A stretch of DNA of 64,000 nucleotides from Pseudarthrobacter polychromogenes (GTDB lineage: Bacteria > Actinomycetota > Actinomycetes > Actinomycetales > Micrococcaceae): the NCBI RefSeq assembly GCF_014644495.1, contig NZ_BMKU01000005.1, positions 277,011 to 341,010 on the forward strand, written 5' to 3'. Each line of letters opens with the position of its first letter. The first letter of the stretch is position 1. Positions 30,199-32,160 of the stretch are shown here, one piece after another. The notes beneath the pieces are model-generated. The model was given only the letters and a program-made list of their open reading frames with translations. It did not search any database and was not told the origin of the DNA. Made by a program: the position numbers and the translations under genes.

Positions 30199-30816
30199 AT
30201 GTCGGATGTGAGTTCCATCCCGCCGCGGCCCGGCCTGCCGGTGGGAACGGCGGCAGAGCGCCGGGACGCCGCACGGAACCGGGAGCGCCTCCTTGCTGCT
30301 GCCCGGGAGCTCATCGCTGACTGCGGGGCGGAGGGGCTGACCATGGACCGGCTGGCCGAGCATGCCGGGGTGGGCAAGGGCACGGTCTTCCGCCGGTTCG
30401 GCAGCCGGGCAGGGCTGATGCTGACGCTGCTGAGCGAGTCCGAGGCCGTCTTCCAGTCCCGGTTCATGTTCGGGCCGCCACCGCTGGGCCCCGGCGCGCC
30501 CGGGCTGGAACGCCTCATCGCCTTCGGGGTGGAGCGGATCTCCTACGTCATGGAGTTCGGGGACCTGGTGCTGGCCGCCGAGCATGCCTCGCACGGGCGT
30601 TTTGAAGCCCCCGCCGCCGTCCTGTGGCACCGCCATATCGAGATCCTCCTGCGGGAAGAAGGCTTTGGGTCCGACCCCTGGCTGATGGCCTGGTCCCTGG
30701 CGGCCACCCTAGATCCGGAGCGGCTGTTAAGCCTTGTCAAAGTCCACGGGATCACGCCTGACAGGCTTGCCGCTTCCTGGCGGGATCTTGTCACACGGGT
30801 GGTCCGCGGCGCGTAG
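30199..30816 (+). CDS. TetR family transcriptional regulator
   Basis: The 205-aa protein carries a TetR HTH at about residues 20-65 (AARELIADCGAEGLTMDRLA, then VGKGTVFRRFGSRAGLM). The N-terminal 15 residues are an unstructured Pro/Arg extension. GAGG lies six bases before the ATG. It is divergent from the FMN reductase and probably represses it. The C-terminal domain ends with a typical TetR helix and gives no ligand clue. Confidence 0.9.
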   Translation: MSDVSSIPPRPGLPVGTAAERRDAARNRERLLAAARELIADCGAEGLTMDRLAEHAGVGKGTVFRRFGSRAGLMLTLLSESEAVFQSRFMFGPPPLGPGAPGLERLIAFGVERISYVMEFGDLVLAAEHASHGRFEAPAAVLWHRHIEILLREEGFGSDPWLMAWSLAATLDPERLLSLVKVHGITPDRLAASWRDLVTRVVRGA

Positions 30817-30981
30817 AGTAGGCCACACACCGAATGTGTGTCCAGTCACACCAACTTCACAGAAGTATTCATAACGATCTGATACGGGCGGGTAGCTTTC
30901 CGGGCATTCGCCCGCATTTTCGGTTCCGGCTTGTGATAGTTTCCTCTGGAATGTGACCCGCGACATAGTCCACAAGGGCTA

Positions 30982-31059
30982 AGCCTGAAAGGCTGCGGGA
31001 CGCCAGCTACCCGCTGGCAAGGACCCGGTGAGGCGGCGCAACCCCCCGCTGATCAGGGG
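30982..31059 (+). ncRNA. Structured 5' leader of the oligopeptide ABC operon (possible riboswitch, class unknown)
   Basis: Three hairpins can form: AGCC-tgaaa-GGCT (30982-30994), GCCAGC-taccc-GCTGGC (31002-31018), and CCCC/GGGG closing 31042-31059. GCGGG (30995-30999) can instead pair with CCCGC (31045-31049), which would break the last hairpin, so two exclusive folds are possible. A small ORF with its own ribosome-binding site follows. Upstream (30817-30980) there is a weak hairpin behind tetR (ACACA/TGTGT near 30825-30840) and a -10-like TGTGATAGT ending at 30940. No known riboswitch class is recognised with confidence; part of the sequence vaguely recalls SAM-type leaders. Confidence 0.45.
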
Positions 31060-31079
31060 AAAACGGAAGGATCCAGCAC

Positions 31080-31169
31080 GTGATTGTTGATTTGCCTAGC
31101 AGCCTGGCCCGCCTGCGGATGACGCGGTGTCTGACCGTCCAGCTGCCGGCGGCGACGATCCAGAAGTAG
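31080..31169 (+). CDS. Upstream ORF, 29-residue possible leader peptide
   Basis: A GTG at 31080 follows GGAAGG (31065-31070) by nine bases and opens a 29-codon frame starting VIVDLPSSLARLRMTR and ending in QLPAATIQK, with TAG at 31167-31169. The permease ATG comes seven bases after the stop, so ribosomes ending here could restart there. The permease itself lacks a good Shine-Dalgarno sequence (GCTGCGGC precedes it), which strengthens the idea of coupling. It contains a single Cys and no run of one amino acid, so classic amino-acid attenuation is not obvious. Function unknown; may be a leader peptide or the start of a previously missed small protein. Confidence 0.5.
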   Translation: MIVDLPSSLARLRMTRCLTVQLPAATIQK

Positions 31170-31176
31170 CTGCGGC

Positions 31177-32160
31177 ATGCTCAGGTACCTCGCCAAGCGC
31201 GGCATCACGTACGTCTTCATGATCTTCCTGACAACGTCGGCGGGATATTTCCTTGCCGTCAGTTCCCTCAAGCCCGCGCTGCTTGAACAGGAACGGATTC
31301 CCCGTCCCACCCCGGAGCAGGTGGCAAACTCGATGCGCCTGAAGGGCCTCGACCCCGACCTCAGCCCCTGGGAACGCTATGTCGAATGGCTTACTGCCAT
31401 TCTCACGCGTTGGGACTGGGGCCGCAGCCCCAACGGCGCCTTCATCAACGCGGAGTTCGGGGACCGCGTCTGGATCTCCACCCGCCTTTTCCTGGCCTCC
31501 ATCATCCTCACCCTGGTGATTGGGGTGGCCCTCGGCGTCTATTCGGCCGCCCGGCAGTACAAGTTCCAGGACCGCGTCATCACCTCGTACAGCTACCTTG
31601 CGTACATCGTGCCGGCCCCTATTGCCTACTTCCTGGTGCAGTTGGGCGCCATCAACATCAACGAGACTGTGGGCGAACGCATCTTCTTTGTCACCGGCAT
31701 TTCCACCCCGGGGATGGAACCGGGCTGGGCCCAGTTCATCGACATGCTGGCGCACTACGCCGTCCCCACTGTTGCCATCACGCTGGTGGGCTGGGGGTCC
31801 TACCAGATTGCCCAACGCCAGTACCTCCTGGACAACGTCAATGCCGACTTCGTCCGGACCGCCCGGGCCAAGGGACTCACCAGGAACCAGGCAATCTCGC
31901 GGCATGCGCTGCGGGTCTCGTTCATACCCGTGGCCCAAAGCATTGCCTTCACCATCCCGGCCATCTTTGCCGGCGGCTTCTTCGCGGAGAAAATCTTCGC
32001 CTGGCCCGGCGTGGGTTCCTGGAGCATCGACGCCATCTCCCTCCAGGACGTCAACGCCGCCACGGCCACGCTGGCCTACGGTTCCGTGATCTTCGCCCTG
32101 GGAGCCATTCTGGCGGATTTCGCCACCACCCTTGTTGACCCGAGAGTGCGGGTGCAGTAG
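31177..32160 (+). CDS. Oligopeptide/dipeptide ABC transporter permease (DppB/OppB type)
   Basis: The 327-aa membrane protein has a first helix at residues about 9-29 and a periplasmic loop of about 70 residues, followed by five further helices. The permease signature is FVRTARAKGLTRNQAISRHA, and the C-terminal end PGVGSWSIDAIS is typical of DppB. It pairs with the DppC-like permease two bases downstream. Opp/Dpp systems import peptides, but relatives carry nickel, sugars and opines, so the substrate is open. The ATG is seven bases after the upstream ORF. Confidence 0.9.
   Translation: MLRYLAKRGITYVFMIFLTTSAGYFLAVSSLKPALLEQERIPRPTPEQVANSMRLKGLDPDLSPWERYVEWLTAILTRWDWGRSPNGAFINAEFGDRVWISTRLFLASIILTLVIGVALGVYSAARQYKFQDRVITSYSYLAYIVPAPIAYFLVQLGAININETVGERIFFVTGISTPGMEPGWAQFIDMLAHYAVPTVAITLVGWGSYQIAQRQYLLDNVNADFVRTARAKGLTRNQAISRHALRVSFIPVAQSIAFTIPAIFAGGFFAEKIFAWPGVGSWSIDAISLQDVNAATATLAYGSVIFALGAILADFATTLVDPRVRVQ

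Follow-up and report, generated by a model that had tools for sequence, protein, structure and literature searches.

The opp locus and its leader

The window, a 64,000-nt stretch of Pseudarthrobacter polychromogenes DNA, carries an oppB-oppC-oppDF-oppA operon encoding a BPD permease, a second permease, a fused double ATPase, and a family-5 binding protein. By sequence search, the closest solved relative of OppB is M. tuberculosis Rv1283c (8j5q_B, E 8.9e-59), and that of the binding protein is Rv1280c of the same importer. The likeness to this importer, OppABCD (Rv1280c-Rv1283c; PDB 8j5q), lies in its homologous permease and binding protein. The features of the locus are as follows:

30199-30816, plus strand: TetR-family gene (PF00440), a candidate local regulator
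30870-30881, plus strand: upstream DNA element CATAACGATCTG, a probable regulator site at about -73, conserved at fixed spacing
30932-30942, plus strand: putative extended -10 promoter TRTGNTANNNT (TGTGATAGTTT), from comparison, with a predicted transcription start at about 30949-30951
30951-30956, plus strand: AUG-UGA start-stop where the transcript is predicted to begin, from a comparison of 150 leaders
31065-31070, plus strand: Shine-Dalgarno (SD) sequence GGAAGG, exact in 135 of 137 scanned leaders
31080-31169, plus strand: mini-ORF of 29 codons, with a GTG start at 31080 and a TAG stop at 31167-31169
31177-32160, plus strand: oppB, with its ATG at 31177, heading the operon (PF00528, E 5.7e-31)

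The TetR-family gene is a regular neighbor: of the 61 loci that carry the leader and exceed 2300 nt, 60 have it, each on the same strand and 197 to 504 nt upstream of oppB. A preliminary description of 30982-31169 had read the letters and coordinates of its landmarks correctly: GCGGG at 30995-30999, GGGG at 31056-31059, GGAAGG at 31065-31070, and seven bases between the TAG and the oppB ATG. Its C-run at 31042-31049 is CCCCCCGC. The best-conserved part of the leader, 30932-30966, lies just 5' of that interval and was absent from that description.

We searched for related leaders with a 20-base block, TAGYTTCCTCTKGAATGTGA, allowing up to two mismatches. The block is present in 156 of the 206 genomes of the window's genus; oppB is present in 164, and 10 have oppB without the block. 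A related leader was recognized by eye in 11 of 11 genomes inspected (nine of the 10 block-less genomes, all but G659, and two block-bearing ones), nine of them with a diverged block. Family matches outside the genus carried three mismatches to the block (7 genomes), with no oppB in the fetched piece. An independent 20-base pattern returned 66 records from a named sequence collection: 62 from Arthrobacter or Pseudarthrobacter, one from a Micrococcaceae bacterium, and three unrelated (Thalassospira, an acidobacterium, and a Binatia MAG). The fetched piece contained oppB in 61 of these records, within 300 nt in 60 of them; the five without it were the three unrelated records and two slices ending just past the leader.

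Across the order, a covariance model of the leader RNA matched in 5 of 297 genomes, each from the window's genus; this search scored 11 candidates per genome and missed class-2 genomes of that same genus (G100 and G174), and distant versions could escape it. Another genus of the same family has two orthologous oppB genes, 70 and 74% identical, at which the leader model found no match and which have strong SDs of their own (-12.0 and -11.7 kcal/mol). As far as searched, the leader appears to be confined to Arthrobacter and Pseudarthrobacter, and the titles and abstract openings covered by our literature search contained no description of it. At one of these two loci (L064, G096), even though oppB carries its strong SD, a possible unrelated 15-codon ATG frame lies 40 nt before oppB and overlaps its GTG start. 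Mini-ORFs at this position may thus predate the leader.

Removal of duplicates by the last 150 nt reduced 157 oppB-matched loci to 139 distinct leaders; nine fetched loci had no oppB match in the piece covered (L050-L057, three-mismatch pattern hits in other genera, and L108). Comparison of these 139 leaders indicates that the leader, with its GGAAGG-GTG mini-ORF before oppB, is conserved across Arthrobacter and Pseudarthrobacter. The preliminary description had staked its reading on conservation of stems and ORF in related genomes, and both are conserved. For the mini-ORF count we excluded L014 and L183, in which the oppB start was unaligned (leaving 137), and L019 and L087, which lack GGAAGG (leaving 135). 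With L082 counted as having a 13-codon mini-ORF and L018 as having none (the scan had taken a wrong GGAAGG), 121 of the 135 have a mini-ORF and 14 do not.

Predicted promoter and leader RNA structure

The -10 hexamer is TAGTTT in 120 of the 139 leaders, TAGCTT in 8, TAATTT in 4, TACTTT in 2, and TAGTCT, TAGTGT, and TAGTAT in 1 each; the remaining two rows are one GAGTTT and one that was mis-anchored. It is preceded by the five bases TGTGR or TATGR in 138 of 139 leaders, and TRTGNTANNNT is found in 148 of 150 (the 139 plus eleven inspected separately). Variation within the -10 is restricted to its three middle positions. Since only these NNN positions vary, we take the block at 30932-30942 to be an extended -10. 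A sigma-70 scan requiring a -35 found no promoter, as expected for this type. An extended -10 here would place the transcription start at about 30949-30951, and thus the whole leader would be RNA; judged from the promoter, the leader is presumably transcribed. The preliminary description had hinged on transcription not starting downstream of 31080, and the predicted promoter lies upstream of that position. Farther upstream, 129 of 139 leaders carry ATAACnATCnG at a distance of 64 to 67 nt from the -10, and the DNA between the two has diverged. The window's copy, CATAACGATCTG, is unique in its own genome at up to two mismatches, and the element is probably a regulator site.

We drew six helices from 40 diverse leaders aligned without structure. 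Together with a further pairing, P0, they are, in this genome:

P0, plus strand: AUGU 30951-30954 with ACAU 30963-30966, near-invariant by pairing count
P1, plus strand: CCCGCG 30957-30962 with UGCGGG 30994-30999, enclosing H1 and H2, with 90.3% of cells paired
H1, plus strand: AGUCC 30967-30971 with GGGCU 30976-30980, with UA-to-CG both-side changes in 8 rows
H2, plus strand: GCC 30983-30985 with GGC 30991-30993, swap test 1/400 against the phylogenetic null
H3, plus strand: GCCAGC 31002-31007 with GCUGGC 31013-31018, with 92.8% of cells paired, swap test 12/400
P5, plus strand: CCCGG 31024-31028 with CAGGG 31054-31058, enclosing H4, with both-side changes in 4 of 5 pairs
H4, plus strand: GGCGG 31032-31036 with CCGCU 31046-31050, swap test 0/400

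P5 has one mismatch in this genome (31027/31055), and P5/H4 ends 6 nt upstream of GGAAGG. Helix register differs between subclades.

Single-sequence folding of the window was not exceptional against shuffles (z -0.63), and the best fold used DNA upstream of the predicted start; the case for structure therefore rests on comparison. In the structure-blind alignment (40 of 41 chosen representatives), 82.9% of cells pair, compared with at most 49.8% when the alignment is slid, and 14 pairs have changes on both sides, compared with 9.2 in shuffles. Under a phylogenetic null on the same 40 leaders, 500 simulations reached the percentage paired 15 times and the pair count 4 times; they reached the other two measures 80 and 51 times, and no helix stood out singly. 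This result is only moderate, perhaps through misalignment of H2, H4, and P5 by MAFFT. Realignment of 100 leaders with a covariance model, which leans to the structure, yielded 18 pairs changed on both sides where shuffles gave 10.3, and 84 cells with such changes against 31.5 (0 of 500). These leaders were taken from the 108 class-1 rows remaining after L019, L086, L087, L160, and L091 were omitted.

A G-test of covariation with APC on a 109-row alignment gave no pair with E below 3.6. Phylogeny swamped the signal, so a swap test was used in its place. This test compares the duplex energy of a leader's own two strands with that of strands exchanged among 38 leaders less than 85% alike, and it needs only the segment borders. 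By permutation, exchanged strands were as good in 0 of 5000 for H3 and H4, 2 for H2, 53 for H1, and 154 for P5; P1, at 348 of 5000, was not significant. Against evolution simulated along the tree of the 38 leaders, the six-helix sum was -4.58, where the null gave -0.46 +/- 0.82 (0 of 400). Singly, H4 was matched in 0, H2 in 1, and H3 in 12 of 400, and P5, H1, and P1 failed this phylogeny-aware test (41, 45, and 57 of 400). P1 varies as CCUGC:GCAGG and UCCGCA:UGCGGA, and class-2 leaders keep it through different sequences, CGCA:UGCG and CCCAAG:CUUGGG (swap 222 of 5000, 14 leaders). The structured leader of the preliminary description is thus conserved, its six helices jointly supported by the phylogeny-aware swap test. 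With conserved helices and compensatory changes beyond those expected from phylogeny, the leader appears to be a structured cis-regulatory RNA.

The four pairs of P0 form in 98, 100, 100, and 99 of the 100 covariance-aligned rows, and AUG:CAU forms in 14 of 14 class-2 rows. P0 and P1 together have the geometry of an H-type pseudoknot, with a 2-nt first loop and stems without a gap. P0 is near-invariant and thus offers little covariation in favor of this putative pseudoknot. GCGGG and the H3 loop pair better than swapped strands by permutation (30 of 5000) and weakly under the phylogenetic null (32 of 400); this is a possible alternative conformer that we do not claim. RNAalifold on 21 leaders paired the SD with UCCUCUG in the promoter region. 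We dropped this candidate, as it uses DNA upstream of the predicted start, and among the rows listed the block variants L109, L142, and L177 are uncompensated at the SD.

The preliminary description could assign the leader to no known riboswitch class, and the Rfam covariance models agree: at the gathering threshold, there were no matches in the window or in the loci of 13 relatives. At E values up to 10, 30815-31180 gave only sul1 (14 bits) and a minus-strand match to SpR20 sRNA (13.6 bits). The sul1 RNA (RF03058) is weakly similar to 31018-31065 in sequence and fold; at E 3.9, its 14 bits fall short of the gathering score of 36.2, and membership was rejected.

Conservation could also lie in the DNA only, as promoter and operator, with the RNA folds incidental. 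In favor of this, conservation is highest in and around the -10, and the TetR gene adjoins. Against it stand the pairs changed on both sides far downstream of the promoter, the phylogeny-aware swap test, and the retention of the mini-ORF, and we consider it very unlikely.

The mini-ORF and its probable coupling to oppB

In the 121 leaders that have it, the mini-ORF starts 3 to 11 nt past GGAAGG and ends between -12 and +7 of oppB. It is 26 to 35 codons long in 96 leaders and 13 codons in 25, and the 120 scanned starts are GTG in 84, TTG in 28, and ATG in 8. Of 97 long gaps between SD and oppB, 96 hold an open mini-ORF, compared with 5.2% of dinucleotide shuffles; the sole miss, L082, was misassigned and really has a 13-codon mini-ORF. 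Stops cluster at -4 to -7, and in the 13-codon class they lie at +7, overlapping the oppB start.

Anti-SD energies follow this arrangement. They average -9.1 kcal/mol at mini-ORF starts (120 leaders). At oppB, the mean is -2.8 kcal/mol behind a long mini-ORF (-4 or lower in 16 of 96), -5.1 behind a 13-codon mini-ORF (-4 or lower in 21 of 25), and -9.2 in the 14 leaders that have none. In these 14 of 135 leaders, the same GGAAGG lies 7 to 14 nt before oppB, where comparison suggests it serves oppB directly. The absence of an SD at the permease start, as first described, thus holds in the long-gap leaders, including the window, and does not clearly hold where the mini-ORF has 13 codons (25 leaders).

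The window's mini-ORF encodes the 29-codon product VIVDLPSSLARLRMTRCLTVQLPAATIQK. Selection on it, for which dN/dS had been proposed, was gauged as pN/pS. The value was 0.80 in frame and 0.98 and 0.80 in the other two frames (161 pairs), and the peptide is nearly unconstrained. The mini-ORF could in principle be a sensing leader peptide, an attenuator or arrest peptide, and some C-terminal residues do recur (AIQK/AIQN-like). However, only these recur, pN/pS is no lower than in one wrong frame, and class 2 has an unrelated 13-codon version while 14 leaders have no mini-ORF. We found neither a conserved peptide nor a regulatory codon run, and the window's copy has no one-codon run, in line with the preliminary description. 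No intrinsic terminator was found within 30949-31177; the single terminator-like site in 30800-31300 is at 30901-30914, with none after the mini-ORF up to 31300. We give a sensing peptide next to no weight.

Instead, selection seems to keep the act of translation and not the peptide. A frame that begins at the SD, ends at oppB, and is free in its peptide fits the needs of termination-reinitiation. The long mini-ORFs have the layout of a translationally coupled uORF, led by an SD and with a stop adjoining a start that lacks one. The moderate oppB SD of the 13-codon class makes coupling there less forced. Most likely, then, the mini-ORF is a translational relay to oppB, as the preliminary description had it when it had the ORF hand ribosomes to the permease; the 96 of 97 open long-gap frames and the weak oppB SD behind long mini-ORFs argue for this role. 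In one genome (G017; L014 and L025), a one-base shift of the oppB frame near codon 7 leaves a 13-codon ORF from the usual ATG, which is either a sequencing error or a new mini-ORF.

Possible control of ribosome loading

We regard a structured leader plus termination-reinitiation coupling through the mini-ORF as the probable arrangement. Transcription would begin at the TRTGNTANNNT promoter, about 130 nt 5' of the mini-ORF. The first ~110 nt would fold into a pseudoknot-like P0/P1 5' domain with H1 and H2, followed by H3 and then P5/H4. Ribosomes would load at GGAAGG, translate a mini-ORF of nearly irrelevant sequence, terminate no more than ~12 nt from the oppB start, and begin again at oppB, and control of loading at one site would set OppB synthesis. 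The structure would act on loading by way of a ligand or a protein, or serve as a fixed platform for loading or stability; that it is a regulated gate is at best an even proposition.

The preliminary description had proposed such a gate, a switch in which GCGGG and GGGG compete for one C-run. The swap tests speak against it. For GCGGG with the C-run, own strands were worse than swapped ones (equaled or bettered in 4946 of 5000 permutations and in 378 of 400 null simulations), and the C-run with GGGG was no better than chance (1413 of 5000 and 133 of 400). For these two pairings the phylogenetic null supplies counts only, its mean and spread being spoilt by failed duplex energies. The partners also differ: GCGGG serves as the 3' strand of P1 (partner CCCGCG, 30957-30962), and the C-run mainly supplies that of H4 (partner GGCGG, 31032-31036). 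Folding of 95 leaders gave an SD accessibility of 0.414, compared with 0.399 with a shuffled leader, and a value above the shuffled one in 48 of 95; accessibility of the oppB start was the same as in shuffled controls. A search for a conserved leader segment complementary to the SD found none. No alternative pairing that masks the SD emerged from these analyses, and a protein- or ligand-dependent mask could escape them.

A new class of metabolite riboswitch, in which a small molecule tied to peptide uptake opens or closes the GGAAGG site, would account for a conserved structured domain of riboswitch size and pseudoknot-like geometry, with near-invariant unpaired ACAU and GAAUGUGA segments, placed just before an SD and upstream of a transporter operon. 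But the leader occurs, as far as searched, in a single gene context and a single related bacterial group, and no alternative pairing with the SD was found. We consider a riboswitch unlikely.

The structure may instead be a fixed element for mRNA stability or ribosome standby that senses nothing, with control at the promoter (TetR and the upstream element) and the mini-ORF only relaying translation. We hold this to be a serious possibility, somewhat short of even. The TetR-leader-opp synteny in 60 of 61 loci, the constant spacing of the upstream element, the varying helix register between subclades, and the lack of SD sequestration are consistent with it, whereas the invariant 5' segment seems to show more sequence identity than stability alone would need. 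One leader (L160, G599) has lost H1 to H4; besides the 5' end it retains a short P1-like hairpin and a GGAAGG placed directly ahead of oppB. It appears from its sequence to be a natural deletion of the leader structure. That it has lost nearly all structure and yet keeps GGAAGG-oppB counts against the arrangement we favor.

Structured leader plus mini-ORF relay, the arrangement we favor, resembles the M. tuberculosis ppe2 leader (a B12 riboswitch and a uORF). There, ppe2 has no SD, overlaps a uORF under riboswitch control, and is reported to depend on translation of that uORF, mainly by termination-reinitiation (PMC11260477). Both have a structured leader, an SD-bearing uORF, and an SD-less downstream gene, with the uORF stop and downstream start adjoining or overlapping. 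Compared with the ppe2 leader (PMC11260477), the opp leader has no Rfam match and precedes another operon, and its mini-ORF usually stops 4 to 7 nt before the start, overlapping only in class-2 leaders. Neighboring genes coupled by termination-reinitiation (PMC11260477; PMC12548453) likewise have a stop near the downstream start and a missing or weak downstream SD, whereas the upstream frame here is only 13 to 35 codons long and nearly unconstrained, with coupling as its only apparent role. The opp leader would add a structured leader outside Rfam to those acting through a mini-ORF relay. Within one group of related soil bacteria, the relay is in places naturally missing, overlapping, or replaced, which would let termination-reinitiation be tested by comparing natural leaders.

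The 5' end offers a further feature. NTG-TGA occurs 7 to 9 nt past the -10 in 148 of 150 leaders (ATGTGA 146, GTGTGA 1, CTGTGA 1), at a spacing of 8 nt in 141, 9 in 6, and 7 in 1. The two misses, L086 and L204, have ATGTGA with a poor -10, and the nine leaders with a diverged block retain ATGTGA. The AUG would sit at about +1 to +3 of the predicted transcript. UGA is never replaced by UAA or UAG, a swap that a mere stop codon would allow, and its U stays U in the 14 aligned class-2 rows, where the P0 partner of this U is C. We also considered a frame starting at the GUG within AUGUGA and rejected it as not conserved, since it runs open past the SD in only 85 of 135 leaders.

Reports from E. 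coli describe 5'-terminal AUGs that bind 70S ribosomes and raise or lower expression of a downstream SD-led gene (PMC4965119), and AUGUGA sites that can terminate and reinitiate (PMC9841429). The opp leader shares with the former an AUG at the (here predicted) 5' end and an internal SD-led start; unlike the E. coli uAUGs (PMC4965119), its AUG is directly followed by UGA and is conserved across a genus. It is conceivable, and in our judgment quite unlikely, that a 70S ribosome binds this near-leaderless AUG-UGA, stops at once, holds or releases the P0/P1 pseudoknot, and so sets the ribosome supply of the GGAAGG mini-ORF and oppB. One 230-nt leader would then, just as doubtfully, contain three ribosome-handling steps with no peptide that matters. 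AUGUGA is equally explicable as P0, whose strand contains the AUG, as a protein-binding DNA site, or as an RNA tertiary motif. Leaderless starts are said to be common in this phylum, and the AUG-UGA, if used, would be a 5'-terminal minimal ORF in such a setting.

Several leaders diverge further. L019, L087, and L091 form a divergent class whose 5' end, by eye, can form a 7-bp GGAUGUG:CACAUCC or an alternative UUCGAAG:CUUCGAA; L091 also has a 12-bp hairpin ahead of its SD. The far-diverged leaders L203 and L205 (G603, G608) have a TATTTT -10 and an ATGTGA 5' end, and in L203, by eye, P1 is rewritten as CCCCCG:CGGGGG.
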